From positions 1-28,593 of the IMG/VR virus record IMGVR_UViG_3300008470_000317: a stretch of 28,593 bases of DNA; one strand, written 5' to 3'. Positions within the stretch are counted from its first letter, which is position 1. Every line of letters starts with the position of its first letter. Below are positions 248 through 9,711 of this stretch, piece after piece. The notes under the pieces were generated by a model, which saw only the letters and a list, made by a program, of their open reading frames with translations, had not been told where the DNA came from and searched no databases. Origin of the DNA: a virus. Made by a program: the position numbers and the translations under genes.

Positions 248-733
248 CTAAAGTGACAACATGGCAGCACCCCACCAACCCTCAATTTCGCCGGGACTAA
301 ACCTCTCGACGAAGTAGGGTGTCTCTGCATGGTAGGGGTACATCACGTCAAGTGGGTCACCTGAGTGGATTCGTCCAACCAGGTGACCAAACTCGTGCAG
401 GGTGGTCCTGCTGTCGGCGCCCTTGGGCAGTCTGACAACGCCCTGGTACGCGAGCCCCACGTAGTTGTTCAGAAGCAGTACAGACCGCTCGGTGACGGCG
501 AGGGTTGCCTCGTCCATTGAGAGGGTGTTCTTGTCCGCTTCAGTGAACAACCTGACCTGGACTATGCCTGGCTCGGGCAAGGGCTCACAGCGACCCCTCA
601 CGACGGTGTACAGGTCCTCTGGGTAGTCCCAGACGTCTAGGGCGGCCCGCACCTCCTGGGCGCTGACAGGTGAGTCCCTGCAGACCTTGATGATCACGTC
701 TGGCATTAGTATGGTGTAGATGAGTCCGAACAT
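248..733 (-). CDS. Metzincin (matrixin-like) zinc metalloprotease
   Basis: This 161-residue protein starts at the ATG at 733, one base after the TGA of the upstream lipoprotein gene (TGACATG); a longer frame to 823 lies wholly inside that gene. Residues 113-123 read HEFGHLVGRIH, the HExxHxxGxxH zinc site: His113, His117 and His123 as ligands, Glu114 as general base. DVMYP at 129-133 supplies the Met-turn (Met131). Eight residues from the third His to the Met is the spacing seen in matrixins (M10A). The N-terminal half (PDVIIKVC, then VRAALDVW) resembles the opening beta strand and helix of metzincin catalytic domains. Cys18 and Cys49 could form a disulphide. No cysteine-switch prodomain and no clear signal peptide are visible, and the length is about that of a bare catalytic domain. 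The target is unknown: host surface protein, virion maturation and lysis are all possible. Family is confident, role is not. Confidence 0.85.
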   Translation of the reverse strand: MFGLIYTILMPDVIIKVCRDSPVSAQEVRAALDVWDYPEDLYTVVRGRCEPLPEPGIVQVRLFTEADKNTLSMDEATLAVTERSVLLLNNYVGLAYQGVVRLPKGADSRTTLHEFGHLVGRIHSGDPLDVMYPYHAETPYFVERFSPGEIEGWWGAAMLSL

Positions 734-734
734 G

Positions 735-1268
735 TCACTTGTCCTCTCGGTGGATTGTCCCTGTGGTGGCCTCCTGCTGATTCCATGCGGCCACATGGAT
801 GGCAACGACGTCGCCAATCTCATCAGTGGTGACTGATGCCACGTCTATCGCTACGGGGAGTCTTCCGCCAACGAGCGGGCCCCACACGCCACCAACATCC
901 ACAACGGCGCTACCGTCCCGGCAGTACCAGACTACTGGAAAATTCGCGGGTTCGCCGTCCAGGCAGATTTCGGTGTCGCCAGACTCCAACAGGCGGAAGG
1001 TCACGCCAGAGGGAAGCCCGGTGAGGTCCATCAGGTCCCCATCCATGCGCCACCAGTCAGTGAAAAGGACGTCCTCGGCCAGGATGTCAGGACACAGCTC
1101 TGCAACAGTCACATCAACGATGCCGTCGCCATCGGTGTCCCACCCAGACTCGTCGTTCCAAGTGTTGGTGATAACCTCATCAAAGCCTAGGCCGAGTTCA
1201 GGTTTGGGTTTGCAGGCCCCAAGAGCAAGGGCCAGGCAGAACAACCAGACACAGATACGAGTTGACAT
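735..1268 (-). CDS. Predicted lipoprotein with a Ca-binding-like DxDxDG motif
   Basis: The 177-residue product begins with an N-region containing Arg4, a hydrophobic stretch (residues 5-16) and a lipobox LGAC with Cys19 as the expected lipidation site. Lys20 at +2 does not act as the Asp inner-membrane retention signal, so outer-membrane sorting is possible if the host is Gram-negative. Residues 44-52 read DTDGDGIVD, the loop pattern of EF-hand, dockerin and thrombospondin type 3 calcium sites. The rest is acidic, apparently beta-rich, with several cysteines. No family was recognised. It ends one base before the metalloprotease start, so the two are probably translated together. An AAAGG sequence precedes the ATG. 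Phage lipoproteins are known in superinfection exclusion and as spanins; this is too large and lacks the layout of a typical o-spanin. Cofactor, anchor or inhibitor of the protease is inference from position only. Confidence 0.75.
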   Translation of the reverse strand: MSTRICVWLFCLALALGACKPKPELGLGFDEVITNTWNDESGWDTDGDGIVDVTVAELCPDILAEDVLFTDWWRMDGDLMDLTGLPSGVTFRLLESGDTEICLDGEPANFPVVWYCRDGSAVVDVGGVWGPLVGGRLPVAIDVASVTTDEIGDVVAIHVAAWNQQEATTGTIHREDK

Positions 1269-1277
1269 TGGGGACCT

Positions 1278-1730
1278 TTAGTTTTCTCGGGTTGCTACCT
1301 TGATGGTGACGGAACTCGAAGTACCAGCGCCCGCGCCATCCCAGAACAGCAGGGTCACATGGCCGCCCCGCACAGGGATGGTGGCGCCCAACTTGTCTGG
1401 GGCAGTGGCGAAGAAGTCGGCCTTGGCAAAGGTCATCTCGTAGGGCTTCATAGTGGCCACACCAGCGGAGAGGGCCTGGCTAGGTACGGGAGCCCAGTCG
1501 GTCGCAGTCCCAGTGGTCCAAGCGGCGGGGTCTTTCTCAAGGGTGAACACGGCCTGCACCCGTAGGTCAGTTAGACTGCCCACTGTGGCGACATCAACTG
1601 TGAAGTCAAGGAAGTCTCCACCACTGACCGGGATGGCGGTCGAAGCGAGGGGCGCGGTCAGGGAGTCGCCCACAAGGCTGCCCGCGGCGCACACGATGTA
1701 ACCCGACGTGGGGTTGATTTTACTTGCCAT
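1278..1730 (-). CDS. Small beta-rich probable structural protein
   Basis: A 150-residue protein of unrecognised family. It is Ala/Gly/Thr/Val-rich with alternating hydrophobic residues, a pattern common in beta-sandwich virion proteins. The C-terminal part (GATIPVRGGHVTLLFWDG) loosely echoes GATFPLRRG in the 240-residue protein encoded at 2303-3025, suggesting the two may belong to one fold class. The ATG overlaps the end of the preceding membrane-protein gene by 11 bases, with GAGG upstream as a ribosome site. It has no signal peptide or membrane segment. A virion accessory role, such as decoration or fibre attachment, fits its position in the late operon but is not shown. Confidence 0.6.
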   Translation of the reverse strand: MASKINPTSGYIVCAAGSLVGDSLTAPLASTAIPVSGGDFLDFTVDVATVGSLTDLRVQAVFTLEKDPAAWTTGTATDWAPVPSQALSAGVATMKPYEMTFAKADFFATAPDKLGATIPVRGGHVTLLFWDGAGAGTSSSVTIKVATREN

Positions 1731-2040
1731 TTGAAGAAGCCTCTACAGTGTTCTGTGTGTATTGCGTGGGTGCGAGGGTGAGGTACTTTGTGGATACCCC
1801 GACACCTGCAAGGGCCAGAAGCCCAAAGAGCAGGGCCAAAGTGATCATGCGTTGGTCTGTGCGACTATCGCTGGCCGCCTGGACAACGGCATCCTCGACC
1901 CGAGTGATAGACGTTGTTAGTCTGGAGAAACCCTCTTTGGTGACAGCGGAGTTCTCCTCAAGCGAGTTGGCTAGAAGCCCAATCAGCGCGCTCTCGGTTG
2001 TGGTCTCGGGGGCATGGTCTTCGAGAAGTTTGACAGCCAT
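1720..2040 (-). CDS. Small single-pass membrane protein
   Basis: This 106-residue protein has a polar, helical N-terminal two thirds (Glu/Ser/Thr-rich, probably a short coiled coil), one strong membrane segment at about residues 70-86 (ITLALLFGLLALAGVGV), and a short polar tail. It starts in a TAATG overlap with the gene before it. The position near the end of the late operon and the small size make a lysis-related role (holin-like or i-spanin-like) conceivable. Holins of this type are usually more charged at the tail, and i-spanins carry the membrane helix at the N-terminus, so neither fits well. It is left as a membrane protein of unknown function. Confidence 0.6.
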   Translation of the reverse strand: MAVKLLEDHAPETTTESALIGLLANSLEENSAVTKEGFSRLTTSITRVEDAVVQAASDSRTDQRMITLALLFGLLALAGVGVSTKYLTLAPTQYTQNTVEASSNGK

Positions 2041-3483: not shown

Positions 3484-6400
3484 CTAGTCACTGTAGACTG
3501 TGTTCTCTGCCTCGGCGAACAGCGCCTGGGCCCCGCGCACGACATTCTCGGGCTCATGGGCCATATCCTCGGCCACGTTGTAAGTGGTCATCCGGGGACC
3601 ACCCATAGCCTGGAGTGCGGACATCACACCAGACCTACGCACACCCCACTCGGAGAGCAGTTGGGCATAGGGGCCAAGTTCGCTACCCAGTAGAGGGTAC
3701 CGTTTCATCGCGGAGAGCATGTGGCGCTCGGTCTGCCAGCCGCCGTCAGCACTGCGGGTGACCCGGTTCTTCGCACCCAGGGGTATCCAGTTAGCTTGCT
3801 CTAGTACAAACTTCTGGTAGCCGTTGACTTTGACCAGGGCCTTGTCTCGGGAGTCCTCTTTGCCCAGGAACGCCATGATATACTGGTCAATGATTTGGCT
3901 CTTGAAACCAAGCATCTCGGCAGTGTGCTCAATGAGGTGTTCCTGCCAGTACCCGTTGGGGGCTGTGGCGCCAATGTCCACACCACCCTTGTTACCAAGG
4001 AAGTTCGCGGCGACTGTGCCAGCCATGAAGGTCATGTGGGTGGTGTTCATGGCGAATTCGATACCGTACAGTGCGCCGTCCTCTGGACTGCTGTAGTACG
4101 CGTGGGTGTCGTCGAAACCACCCGCAAGGGCAGCCTGCCTCTGCTCATAGGATAGCACTGAACTGAACCCGTGCGTCGCGCCACCCATGTAGGACGGCTG
4201 GAAGTTGGTCAGACGCTGTTCATTCAGGGCGCGGCCCTTGAGGGTTTCATCCTGCTCGGCCTTGTCGTTGACGTACTGGGTGACAGCGTGGGAGGCCTGC
4301 GCGCGGTTTCTGGACCGGCCCAGGATTGTCTGGCCCATCATGGACTTGGCGAGGAACCGCGGGTCCTGGGCCTCGAAACCCTCAAACAGCGCCCGCATAC
4401 CGTACTTCAGGGCTTGTTTGTGGAACCGGTAGAACGGCACAACCCGGGCGACGTGGGCAAGCTCCCACTGGGAGTAGTCATGGCTCCAGTCAAACAAGGC
4501 GTTGGTGGCCCGCTTCTTGGCGGTGCGGGGGTCGGCGCCCTCGGACAATAGGTGCATGAACAGGTGGGACCGTTGCCGCCGTTCAATGTCGGTGTTGAGG
4601 TCTGCGATGCCGCGCTTGCTGTCAGCAAAGGCACCACCCAACTTGTTGGTCCACCCCTCACGACCAGCGCGTTCAGTTGACTGTAGGAACTCGTGTGAGG
4701 CCTCGGCGTCCATCATACCATAGTCAGCGAGCATTTCCCGCACTTCGTCGTAACTGTAGGCTGAACCACTTTTGGTCTTAAACGTACCTTTCTTGCCCGC
4801 AAAGATGTCGTTGGTGATTCGTGAGGAGTAGCTCTGCGTGATCGTGGGGAGTATGTCCGAGCCAGCCTTAACCACGGATCCCATGGCTTTGCGAATTGGG
4901 TTCCAGTATGGTTGGAGGGACGACGTGACAGCGCGTGCCCCAGCGTTGCGCTCATGGAACTTGAACGCTTCGTGGACTGTGTTACTCGCGGCGACCCCAA
5001 TGGCACCAGCCCAGATAGCCCGGATTGGGCCTGTAGCTACTGGGATGGTCACGTTGACGGCGGCCGTCATGCCCTCGTTGGACGCAACCTGCAGGGTGTT
5101 ACCAAAGATGTTGGCGCTGACGTGCTTAGGGTCACCCACAAGTACGCCCGCTGTGAGGCTCTGGAGCACCACGTTGACAGCGGCTGGTCCAAGGTCTACC
5201 AGGTTACCCATACCATTGGATTTCGAGTGGTACAGTGTCATCTCCTTGATAAGCCCGTCTAGCTCAGTGCCCAATTCGTCCATCAGGGACTTAGGCAGGA
5301 ACGTGGGAGCCTCGCCGGGGTACTCGTCTCGGAGTACAACCAGGGTCTTAAACGCGCCCTCACCCCCGTCGACCTTGTGCTTCTCACCTATCACGTTGAA
5401 GCCGAGCTCGTTCGAGATGGCCATGACAGAGTCAATGTTGAATGCGTCGCTGGCTAGGTCTTCAGCGGACATCCCCCCCGTGATAAAGTTGTTGAACATG
5501 GTCATGTCTGCGGCGGAGTACTTCCCAGTCACCATCCGACTGGCGGTGTTAGCCACACGGGTCTCAAGGGCGAGGTGAGCGAGACCAGCGGCAATCATCA
5601 GGCGAGTCTTGTCAGATGCGCCCGTCTTGCCGAGCTCGGCGGCGAGCTTGGTTGGGGTCACGTCCAACAGGGTCTCCTCGACAATCACTCTGGCGGCACG
5701 CTTCAGACGACTGCGCATCTCCGCCATAGTTGTCACAGTGCTGTCAGCCAGTATGTCGACAGTCGCCTGGAATAGCGCGGTAGACACGTTGCCACTGCCA
5801 GGGTGCCTGGCCATGATTTCGGGGATGACCGAGTTCGCGATGGCCGCAATTCCAGGGTAGTTCTTCTGGCGCTGGGCGGCACCCTCGGAGGCGCCTTCAA
5901 GCTTGGCTGCAGCCTTCTGGTCGGCCTTGAACGCTAGTATCTCGTCAGCGGTGAGTCCCGCGGGGACAGTCTTGGGGTCACGGAGACGCTTGATGTCTAC
6001 AGCGCGGCCCTTGGCGTCGATGAATAGCGACCGGTCCGACACGTTTCCCATGGTGGCGCCGCGCCCGTCAATGTCCATAGGCGCAGTCGTCTCAAAGTAC
6101 TGGTCCAGGTCGGCCCAGTCGTTGCCACGCGCGGCCAGGCGGGAGGCGTCATCACGGATGAGTGCTGAGCGGCTCTTTGTCTCGTCGATTACAACCACAA
6201 ACTTCTCGTTGATTGCCCCGTGGTCTACGACGGCACGCCCTTTGAAGAGGCCCGCGGTGCTGCGCGCGGCCAGACTGTACACACCCACCGCCAATCGTGT
6301 GAACGCGTTGTTAGACGCCAGGGGCATCGTGGGGTCGTCCATCATAATCTTCAGCGCGCGCACCCGGGTAATCTCCGGGGTGAGGTCCCGACGCTCGGCG

Positions 6401-9400
6401 AACTGGAGGAAGTCGTTGACCAGTTCCTCGGTGTGCTTCAGAGCATCCCGTGGGATGAGTTCTGTGGCATTGACTAGAGCCTGACCCTTGGGCGAGGTTG
6501 ACCACTCGGCGAACGCCGCCGAGTACTCACTCTGCATAAGCTTGGTGAGGGTGGACTTGTTGATTGCGGTACCGGCGTCATCATCGAATGACTTGTGGAT
6601 TAGGTCTGACGAGATGTCATCCCACTTGTATGTATCTCGGGCGGCATCTTGCTTGATACCCTCGGCGAGTGAGCGGGCCACTTTGGCGTAGGTCTCGCGG
6701 TACAGGTCATTGGCATCCTGGTAGGCCTTCTTGCGGTCCATAATCGCGAGGTCTTTGTCAGCCTTCACGAGCTCCGGGCTTCTGTTCTTGGGCGTGTGCT
6801 TGGCCTTAGAGGCCTTGAGGTCCGCGCGCTTCCGGGCGTTGTCTTTGCGGCTGGCTAGGATAGAGTACCGCCCCGCCTGCACGTCCTGGTCGAGCAAGGT
6901 CTTGTGGAGCTTGGCCTTCTTAGCCTTCAGCATCTCCCGGGCCCGGGCCCACGATGCCTTTGAGATAGCCTCACGCGCCTGCGCAGCGGCGACACTTAGC
7001 CGGGTGGCTTCGGCCTGTGCTTTAGCAACATACGCCTTGGAAGAGCGTTTGTAGTCCTTCAGGTTAGCCCTGGTCTCGGCGAGCTTGTTTCTGGCGGCCA
7101 GCAGGTCCTTTGTGGGGTTGGTCTTGATGGCTGCACTAATCACAGCCTCCGTGTGCCCTCCAGCTACCTCTGTGACCACCCGCTTAGCCTCTGTGACCTC
7201 GGCTGCCATTTCGGTAACCTTGTCGGCGGCGAGGGCTTTGGCACGTTGTGCGGATGCCTCTGCGCGGCGGGCGTGGCTTTCAGCTTGCACGGTGGTCTTG
7301 ATAGGAGCCTTGCGGTCGTGGGCTATCCTGTCAAGTTGTGCGTTGATTTTGACAATCTGCTCCTTGACAGCGTTGGACTCACTCAAAGTGACCTTCTTGA
7401 CGTTGGCACCCTTTGGAATCTTGTCGGCTTCAACCTTTAGTACAGCGTCGAGGCGCACAAGCTGGATGTCCAGGGCGTCAATAAGCTCCCGCTGAAGGGC
7501 CACGACCTGGTTGGCCTGGTCAATCCGTTTGCCCTCCTCGGCTAGAGCCATGGTGCTCTTCCTGTCAACAATATCAACCTTCAGCCGGTGAATCTGGTCA
7601 CCAGAGGACTTGTATGCCTCCGCCATACGTGGGTCAGCCCGCAGAGCCTGACCAAACTCCCCACGAACAATGGACTCAAGGAAAGGTGAGACAGCCTGAG
7701 AGAGCATGCTCAATTCAAGTGTCTTGCCTAGGGCCTCCAGGTCGTCCCCGCGCTCGGCCGCAGTAGCCGCAGCCTCAAAGGCTTTCCGGGCCTTAGACGC
7801 CTTCCGGAGCTTGTTGACCTTTCCGCCCGCCTTGACCACGTTGCCTGCACCGTACGTGATCATTCCCACGGGGTCAGGCTGTGCGGACTCACCTACGAGG
7901 GCGTAGAACCAGGGTAGGTTGTTGGCTATGAGTCTCTCCGCCGCCCAGTCGCTGTCTGTGTCAAGACCAATGCGGGCCACAAAGGGCTTCATCGTGGTGT
8001 CGATGTCGGTGAAGAAGTCAGCATCTCCACGCAGGGCGGAAATCTCCTCCGGGGTCTCGCCCATGGCGAAGGGGATGTTGAGTCCGTCCCAGTCTTCACT
8101 CCACCCTGGCGTGGTCAGGTCACCTAGAAAGTCACGGTTCATCTGGTTGAAAGACTTCAGCGCGTCCGACGACTTCTTTGGGAACATAGCCGTCACAAGC
8201 GCAGACTGGACCCCAGTGCCCAGGGCGTACAAGTCACCCAGGTCGAGCACCTGGTCGGGGGTGCGGGAGCCCACGGAAATCATCGCAGATGGTGACACAC
8301 CACGCCCCAGCATCTCAAGCAGACCCAGCGCGGACTGCTTGACCACACCGGACTTGAACGTGGTGTCATTCCCGAAGGTGACATAGGCGGCCTCTGGGGA
8401 GTACATGGCCAGGATGCCACCGGCGCCCACAGGTAGGGTGGACAGCCACTCGTTGTAGGCCTCCTGGTCAGCGTCGCTCCGGTTGAACCGGGGTACGCCT
8501 GGGTGGGAGTTCACCAGGTCTTCGATGTCTTTTTGTGAAGATGTACTTGCGTTCTTGACGGCTACATCGTACTCCTCACCACCACGTAGGTTGTTTCGGA
8601 GTCGAATCTTGTACAGTTTGAGCTTGGCGTCTGCGGGGCTCCACGCGGCGGTCTCTCCACCCGGTGTCCGCGACAGCTTGATCATGACCCCAGGGATGCC
8701 CAGGTCGGCAGCCTGCGCCATCATCGCGGCATGCGTGGCCGGCAGCTCCGCGTTGACGTTGCGCAGTTCCTCCGGGGGCTCCGCGTCACCAAAGCCCTTG
8801 GTGGTCTTCTCCATGTACGTGTCATAGGCGTCCTTGCTCACGTCACCTGCAGAGTACGCGTCTAGCCCCAACCAGCCTTGGGGGGTGGCGTTCCTAGTGA
8901 GGAATTCCATGCCATCCAAGGAACCATTCCAGGCGGTACCAATGGTCAGGCTGAGGGCGCCCATAGTGCCCATCATGGCACCCCGCCCTGCGTGCTTTAC
9001 GAAGTCGTACTCACCAGTCTCTTCGTCGATGAAGCCATCATCAAGGGCCAGGATTTTGTCAACCCGGTCGTTGAATGCGTTCTTAGCCTTGTCGAGCATG
9101 CCAGCATTCGAGCGAGCTTGCACTTTGCCCACCGCGGAGGCCAACTGGGCACTCTGGGTGTTGGCTACATCATCAGCCTCGGCCTGTCGGTCTGCGGTAG
9201 ACTTCGATGCGACCTGGGGCACAGTGCCCTCACGCTCCTCTGGGATGTCATCAGAGCTCACAGGTGGGGCGTCACCCTCAACGGACACCTGGTCAGCTAG
9301 GGGAGGCGCGGTGGGCTTGCGGTAGCCGGGCATACCCGGAGCGGCCTCGGAGTTACCCTCATAGCCCTCTGGGGCGTCCAGTAGAGCTTCAGGGGCTGGT

Positions 9401-9711
9401 GGGCCCTGGTCGGGTGTCAGGGGGGCCAGGACAGGCTCTGGGGCGGTCTGTGGCTCTGGTGTGGGCTGCGCACTGTCCCAGATGGTGGCACGGCGCTGTG
9501 TGGTATCAGTCTCACCCTTGAGGGCTAGCAGGCGGCTGCGTGCGGCGACGTCCTCGGCGTGGGTGGCAGACTCTAGGCGGGCGTCACTAATCTCGACTGG
9601 AACAGAGGCACCCACAGAGGTGCCCTGCTCATTGGCCACCCTGACCGCAATCTGGCGCTCTAGGAGTCGACGTCTACGCGCGGCTAGGACATCTTGGTAC
9701 GCTGAACCCAT
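3484..9711 (-). CDS. Giant internal virion / DNA-ejection protein (T7 gp16-like by position)
   Basis: This 2075-residue protein takes up over a fifth of the window. By size and order (after a glycine-zipper protein and a 519-residue helical protein) it occupies the slot of T7 gp16, which is expelled from the head and helps carry DNA through the cell envelope. Visible parts: a basic helical N-terminus, a Pro/Glu-rich linker at about residues 90-170, a Gly/Ala/Met hydrophobic stretch near 240-260, a long Ala/Lys/Glu coiled-coil region at about 650-1010, a second hydrophobic stretch near 1550-1580 (VTIPVATGPIRAIWAGAIGV), and near 1740-1765 WSHDYSQWE followed by VVPFYRFHKQ. The last resembles a 'DYs..e...r...PFY.w...N' signature I recall from very large phage ejection proteins. 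I see no lysozyme or transglycosylase motif, although T7 gp16 carries one. The ATG at 9711 has GGAG nine bases upstream. Confidence 0.75.
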   Translation of the reverse strand: MGSAYQDVLAARRRRLLERQIAVRVANEQGTSVGASVPVEISDARLESATHAEDVAARSRLLALKGETDTTQRRATIWDSAQPTPEPQTAPEPVLAPLTPDQGPPAPEALLDAPEGYEGNSEAAPGMPGYRKPTAPPLADQVSVEGDAPPVSSDDIPEEREGTVPQVASKSTADRQAEADDVANTQSAQLASAVGKVQARSNAGMLDKAKNAFNDRVDKILALDDGFIDEETGEYDFVKHAGRGAMMGTMGALSLTIGTAWNGSLDGMEFLTRNATPQGWLGLDAYSAGDVSKDAYDTYMEKTTKGFGDAEPPEELRNVNAELPATHAAMMAQAADLGIPGVMIKLSRTPGGETAAWSPADAKLKLYKIRLRNNLRGGEEYDVAVKNASTSSQKDIEDLVNSHPGVPRFNRSDADQEAYNEWLSTLPVGAGGILAMYSPEAAYVTFGNDTTFKSGVVKQSALGLLEMLGRGVSPSAMISVGSRTPDQVLDLGDLYALGTGVQSALVTAMFPKKSSDALKSFNQMNRDFLGDLTTPGWSEDWDGLNIPFAMGETPEEISALRGDADFFTDIDTTMKPFVARIGLDTDSDWAAERLIANNLPWFYALVGESAQPDPVGMITYGAGNVVKAGGKVNKLRKASKARKAFEAAATAAERGDDLEALGKTLELSMLSQAVSPFLESIVRGEFGQALRADPRMAEAYKSSGDQIHRLKVDIVDRKSTMALAEEGKRIDQANQVVALQRELIDALDIQLVRLDAVLKVEADKIPKGANVKKVTLSESNAVKEQIVKINAQLDRIAHDRKAPIKTTVQAESHARRAEASAQRAKALAADKVTEMAAEVTEAKRVVTEVAGGHTEAVISAAIKTNPTKDLLAARNKLAETRANLKDYKRSSKAYVAKAQAEATRLSVAAAQAREAISKASWARAREMLKAKKAKLHKTLLDQDVQAGRYSILASRKDNARKRADLKASKAKHTPKNRSPELVKADKDLAIMDRKKAYQDANDLYRETYAKVARSLAEGIKQDAARDTYKWDDISSDLIHKSFDDDAGTAINKSTLTKLMQSEYSAAFAEWSTSPKGQALVNATELIPRDALKHTEELVNDFLQFAERRDLTPEITRVRALKIMMDDPTMPLASNNAFTRLAVGVYSLAARSTAGLFKGRAVVDHGAINEKFVVVIDETKSRSALIRDDASRLAARGNDWADLDQYFETTAPMDIDGRGATMGNVSDRSLFIDAKGRAVDIKRLRDPKTVPAGLTADEILAFKADQKAAAKLEGASEGAAQRQKNYPGIAAIANSVIPEIMARHPGSGNVSTALFQATVDILADSTVTTMAEMRSRLKRAARVIVEETLLDVTPTKLAAELGKTGASDKTRLMIAAGLAHLALETRVANTASRMVTGKYSAADMTMFNNFITGGMSAEDLASDAFNIDSVMAISNELGFNVIGEKHKVDGGEGAFKTLVVLRDEYPGEAPTFLPKSLMDELGTELDGLIKEMTLYHSKSNGMGNLVDLGPAAVNVVLQSLTAGVLVGDPKHVSANIFGNTLQVASNEGMTAAVNVTIPVATGPIRAIWAGAIGVAASNTVHEAFKFHERNAGARAVTSSLQPYWNPIRKAMGSVVKAGSDILPTITQSYSSRITNDIFAGKKGTFKTKSGSAYSYDEVREMLADYGMMDAEASHEFLQSTERAGREGWTNKLGGAFADSKRGIADLNTDIERRQRSHLFMHLLSEGADPRTAKKRATNALFDWSHDYSQWELAHVARVVPFYRFHKQALKYGMRALFEGFEAQDPRFLAKSMMGQTILGRSRNRAQASHAVTQYVNDKAEQDETLKGRALNEQRLTNFQPSYMGGATHGFSSVLSYEQRQAALAGGFDDTHAYYSSPEDGALYGIEFAMNTTHMTFMAGTVAANFLGNKGGVDIGATAPNGYWQEHLIEHTAEMLGFKSQIIDQYIMAFLGKEDSRDKALVKVNGYQKFVLEQANWIPLGAKNRVTRSADGGWQTERHMLSAMKRYPLLGSELGPYAQLLSEWGVRRSGVMSALQAMGGPRMTTYNVAEDMAHEPENVVRGAQALFAEAENTVYSD

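Follow-up and report, generated by a model that had tools for sequence, protein, structure and literature searches.

The operon described here raises the question of what a small zinc protease contributes to a phage that encodes it behind its structural genes and next to a lipoprotein gene. The window, which is the whole stretch of DNA that was analysed, comprises an entire IMG/VR record of 28,593 bases and is a linear fragment. Its minus strand codes for a podovirus-like late operon with TerL (Terminase_6C), a P22/SU10-type portal, structural genes, and small late genes. A probable ejection or virion protein of 2075 residues, encoded at positions 3484–9711, has no match in Pfam or PHROGs, and single-sequence searches of viral contigs retrieved no relatives of either this protein or TerL. 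The final gene of the minus-strand operon (positions 248–733, stop codon included) encodes a matrixin-like metzincin of 161 residues, which is a leaderless, bare catalytic domain. It is opposed by the 3′ part of a convergent HNH endonuclease gene on the plus strand (positions 2–205). The location of the protease gene at the end of a late operon, proposed in a first-pass annotation of the DNA, is thus correct.

A coding gene with a complete active site

The protein encoded by the minus-strand open reading frame 248–733 reads MFGLIYTILMPDVIIKV...HEFGHLVGRIHSGDPLDVMYP... The codon score of the protease frame is +0.25, compared to −0.16 or lower in the other five frames, and a Shine-Dalgarno-like GAGAGG (743–748, minus strand) is positioned 9 nucleotides before the ATG at position 733. 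A start at position 823 was rejected, because the extension contains no leader-like stretch and the start at 733 has a good Shine-Dalgarno sequence. The open reading frame is a real coding gene.

The zinc-binding motif HEFGHLVGRIH occupies residues 113–123 of the protein (365–397, minus strand) and is followed by the Met-turn DVMYP at residues 129–133 (335–349, minus strand). His113, Glu114, His117, His123, and Met131 are all present, and the eight residues that lead from His123 to Met131 represent MMP-like spacing; the residues sit exactly where the first-pass annotation had placed them. A search of the window with the DNA pattern encoding HE[hydrophobic]GHxxGxxHx7M[YF]P gives one match (336–397), and 100 dinucleotide shuffles give none. 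The predicted elements of the protease include a strand at residues 13–18, a helix at residues 25–34, and the zinc helix at residues 108–118, so that an opening strand and helix precede the motif as had been anticipated.

Predicted fold and relationship to matrixins

The structure of the protease predicted by AF2 from 46 aligned sequences has a pLDDT of 86.5 and a pTM of 0.81, and is weak mainly at both ends of the chain. The 46 PDB structures matching the model at E ≤ 1e-3 are all catalytic domains of MMPs, which speaks for a metzincin core, and the clustering of His113, His117, and His123 is predicted from this match of the fold. The Foldseek TM-scores are moderate, reaching 0.42–0.50 for PDB structures and 0.58 for the best viral match. 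A profile built from the 46 aligned sequences, which include the window protein and phage matrixin members, aligns with MMPs and karilysin across almost the entire domain at about 1e-20. The PDB sequence matches of the window protease itself are also MMPs and are confined to the active site. The Pfam profile PF00413 (Peptidase_M10) recognizes the protease with an E-value of 3e-4; however, the score of 21 bits is below the curated cut-off of 24.

The protease shares the zinc motif, the eight-residue spacing to the methionine, and the predicted fold with karilysin and the catalytic domains of MMP-8, -11, -12, and -13 (MEROPS M10A). Unlike these enzymes, it has no signal peptide, and it lacks the structural-zinc histidines of vertebrate MMPs, as there is no histidine before residue 113. 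The approximately ten residues ahead of the first strand contain neither a propeptide nor a cysteine switch, in agreement with the earlier description of a bare catalytic domain. A propeptide with a cysteine switch is also missing from some bacterial matrixins. Because the propeptide, cysteine switch, and structural-zinc histidines are missing, the protein is a matrixin-like metzincin and a predicted enzyme rather than a strict member of M10A. Of the earlier assignment to M10A, the matrixin type endures, with MMPs as the neighbours in structure and profile searches, whereas strict membership is not borne out by the Pfam score and the missing histidines. The predicted identity of the protein as a metzincin is highly probable, and it would be expected to have zinc-dependent endopeptidase activity.

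Relatives among phage matrixins

The first-pass annotation took phage-encoded metzincins to be rare. This view is refuted by at least 119 IMG/VR contigs that contain the DNA pattern of the motif and Met-turn at identical spacing, and by phage proteins in BFVD to which the names 'Peptidase M10' or 'Matrixin family metalloprotease' have already been given. Among the matches listed, nearly all lie in open reading frames that resemble matrixins and belong to several groups. An isolate-dominated phage collection contains few matches to the motif. Judging by these sequence matches, matrixins are common in phages. A PRCG motif resembling a cysteine switch precedes the catalytic domain in seven phage matrixin open reading frames (L013, L017, L029, L044, L050, L072, and L110), and some of the PRCG-bearing proteins have long N-terminal regions resembling a peptidoglycan-binding prodomain. 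The matrixin motif also occurs inside very long phage proteins, such as that encoded by a 1544-residue open reading frame of L102, and within the annotated tape measure protein of Arthrobacter phage Shambre1 (OP297545.1, 14014–14169).

When the active site is masked, the window protease still reaches 14.8 bits with the profile built for one group of phage matrixins, group B (L019, L027, L034, L098, L111, L121, and L122), while the best of 2000 shuffles reaches 5.5 bits. The identity to group B is 21–24%. Sequence comparison thus indicates that the protease is homologous to the group-B matrixins beyond the active site, across a domain that includes both cysteines, the first strand, the helix, the zinc motif, and the Met-turn, and these homologues keep both motifs. 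By contrast to the window protease, several members of group B carry an export leader, which is either a lipobox or a signal sequence. Group C (L045, L062, L076, and L123) is borderline when the active site is masked, as 12 of 2000 decoys reach its score, and the remaining groups of phage matrixins match the window protease at the motif alone. Cys18 and Cys49 of the protease fall in the region aligned with the group-B cysteines, which suggests a Cys18–Cys49 disulfide; the cysteine pair fits an oxidizing destination. In L122, a trypsin-like protease gene and a gene for a vWFA-like lipoprotein (5612–7215), identified by eye, are located just upstream of the group-B matrixin.

No relatives of the protease were found by a single-sequence search of viral contigs or by tblastn against 50,697 phage records, and a tighter motif pattern revealed none closer to it. 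A scan of genome contigs produced matches mainly at the active site. The matrixin family metalloprotease of Maribacter phage Colly_1 and the Peptidase M10 A0A6J5P205 of an uncultured Caudovirales phage share the phage-encoded matrixin fold; however, they are distant, with 11–14% identity. The missing close homologue and the Pfam score under the cut-off would be explained if the motif had arisen by chance in a non-coding frame or if the protease were degenerate. Such an origin is highly implausible in view of the codon bias, the Shine-Dalgarno sequence, the confident fold, the intact catalytic residues, and the homology that extends beyond the motif.

Export signals and destination of the protease

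A crude scan for leaders, based on simple searches for hydropathy, lipoboxes, and Tat motifs, recognized a leader or anchor in 54 of 82 phage matrixin representatives. Fourteen of the 82 are fused to large proteins or are open at the 5′ end, and in 14 the scan recognized no leader. By inspection, the leader-negative representatives are mostly start-call problems or Tat-like, and a handful are left that lack a leader, some with an additional N-terminal domain. Tat-like RR signal sequences are present in a group of phage matrixins that includes L013, L044, L050, L086, L088, L096, and L104. The same scan detected no recognizable leader in the window protease. The absence of an export signal together with the position directly behind a lipoprotein gene mark the protease as unusual among phage matrixins.

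One alternative is that the protease is an exported accessory enzyme for trimming surface proteins of the host while infection proceeds, for superinfection exclusion or for the removal of an S-layer or matrix. Most phage matrixins have Sec, Tat, lipoprotein, or membrane-anchor leaders and occur in varied contexts other than lysis. Moreover, residues 2–9 of the window protease (FGLIYTIL) are hydrophobic and could enable export, as could an unrecognized route. However, the segment before the first core strand is short and has neither a charged n-region nor a cleavage site, and this role is unlikely.

The missing leader would also be explained if the protease were packaged into the virion or processed structural proteins inside the cell. 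The position of its gene among structural and ejection genes and the occurrence of matrixin domains in tail tape measure proteins of other phages are in line with a virion-associated or maturation protease. However, typical maturation proteases are encoded next to capsid genes, whereas this gene closes the operon at the opposite end; the majority of phage matrixins are exported, and the conserved cysteine pair is better suited to the periplasm. A function in the virion or its maturation is therefore also improbable, to about the same degree as that of an exported enzyme.

The adjoining lipoprotein gene

The gene directly upstream of the protease gene (735–1268, minus strand, 534 bp) encodes a 177-residue lipoprotein with a signal sequence and the lipobox LGAC. 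Its stop codon TGA ends one base ahead of the ATG of the protease gene (1-nucleotide gap), which confirms the coupling of the two genes that had been noticed previously. The lipoprotein contains the DxDxDGxxD-type loop DTDGDGIVD, which resembles calcium-binding repeats. Neither a single-sequence search of viral contigs nor tblastn against the 50,697 phage records identified a homologue of the lipoprotein, and its sequence does not match solved structures, including those of inhibitors. A model predicted from the single sequence is uninformative (pLDDT 36.6). No relative among phage matrixins was found to have the same lipoprotein–protease gene pair. A general pairing of phage matrixins with lipoproteins is not supported, because lipoprotein genes are not enriched next to matrixin genes (2 of 161 immediate neighbours versus 1 of 392 distant genes).

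Two bacterial systems resemble the gene pair. The genes of the KLIKK proteases of Tannerella forsythia, including the matrixin-like karilysin, are directly preceded by lipoprotein genes of 360–550 bp, the products of which share no mutual similarity (PMC4404884). These lipoproteins, called potempins, have been described as specific inhibitors (PMC7296668). The gene order and the size of the lipoprotein gene in the window are alike; however, KLIKK proteases are secreted enzymes with a sorting domain at the C-terminus, similarity of the window lipoprotein to potempins is not detectable, and its function as an inhibitor is putative. The second system is Mtz-Tim of Listeria monocytogenes, a phage-derived pair of a metzincin and a lipoprotein. 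The pair makes cells more sensitive to phage lysis, and the lipoprotein Tim is cleaved by Mtz (PMC8235301). Unlike the window protease, Mtz has a signal peptide, its gene precedes tim, and the pair is a chromosomal remnant in a Gram-positive host, outside any late operon (PMC8235301).

The gene order shared with the KLIKK operons and the phage origin of Mtz-Tim raise the alternative that the matrixin and a dedicated potempin-like or Tim-like lipoprotein inhibitor serve mainly in competition or in the protection of the infected cell, and not in lysis. As the lipoprotein sequence resembles no solved inhibitor and lipoprotein genes are not generally enriched beside phage matrixins, this alternative is less likely than either export or a role in the virion.

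Lysis context and proposed role

A candidate holin gene is located three genes upstream of the protease gene (1720–2040, minus strand). The encoded 106-residue protein has a coiled-coil-like N-terminus and a strong single transmembrane segment, with a 19-residue hydropathy of 2.27 at residue 65, and it has no family match in any of the libraries scanned. A late protein of 150 residues with no assigned function is encoded between the transmembrane protein and lipoprotein genes (1278–1730, minus strand). No endolysin was recognized among the window proteins scanned, which represent a fragment of a genome. In Pseudoalteromonas phage H6/1, the TerL of which is distantly related, the corresponding position, at the end of the late operon and facing an HNH gene of opposite orientation, is taken by an endolysin gene.

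Links to lysis genes occur in several other lineages of phage matrixins. In group B, an Amidase_2 gene precedes the matrixin gene in L034 and in L111, and this is the only phage type of the group with an endolysin link, as L019, L098, and L121 have none. In group C, a Peptidase_M15_4 gene is located directly after the matrixin gene in L062 and L123, and a homologue of the L123 enzyme is encoded after the matrixin in L076. A gene for a small coiled-coil/transmembrane protein precedes the matrixin gene in L123, and the matrixin gene of L118 follows a gene with an SLT domain. Group-C matrixins have a lipobox or a coiled-coil/transmembrane N-terminus. Those of L045, L062, and L076 have an N-terminal coiled coil and a transmembrane or lipobox segment, and a peptidoglycan-peptidase gene adjoins in L062 and L076; matrixins of this type are possible membrane-anchored lysis proteases. 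Hydrophobic N-termini are enriched among the products of immediate neighbours of phage matrixin genes (30 of 161, compared to 26 of 392 for distant genes, p = 7e-5, with thresholds chosen for the present analysis and simple gene calls), which is consistent with envelope-directed modules. Among the top 25 families listed, endolysin-type families are about equally frequent beside phage matrixins and four to seven genes away. A role in lysis for phage matrixins in general is therefore not supported, and the link to lysis appears to be limited to some lineages.

The absence of an export signal and the adjoining lipoprotein gene suggest that the window protease is set free when the host lyses and then cleaves envelope proteins of the host. 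The small matrixin-type zinc endopeptidase would be produced late and, because it has no export signal, would build up in the cytoplasm. Opening of the membrane at lysis would allow it to enter the periplasm or the medium, in the manner of leaderless endolysins, where it may cut envelope or extracellular proteins and so aid the release of virions. The co-translated lipoprotein, already placed in the envelope, would be its partner, most likely as an inhibitor or anchor and otherwise as a substrate. The holin-type release, the substrate, and the partnership with the lipoprotein are presumed. This scenario, in which the protease is freed at lysis and the lipoprotein is its partner, is given a probability of roughly 0.45, and an envelope-directed role of the protease, in whichever form, is somewhat favoured. 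Of the roles suggested in the first-pass annotation, action on the envelope at lysis is the one that the circumstantial evidence favours most. It is doubtful that the locus is a full protease-based lysis module, in which a holin-released leaderless matrixin and its envelope lipoprotein inhibitor would replace endolysin and spanins or act beside them.

The remaining interest of the locus is that it combines a leaderless matrixin, coupled to a lipoprotein gene, with the position of a lysis cassette, and that no endolysin is recognized in the sequenced part. Phage matrixins are apparently widespread in uncultivated phages and almost unstudied, with Mtz-Tim of Listeria as the one experimental precedent in the literature consulted. 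If endolysin-like delivery and pairing with a lipoprotein hold for some phage matrixins, envelope proteolysis would be an additional, testable step of phage lysis in some hosts, and small metzincins together with their own inhibitors could be used as tools.
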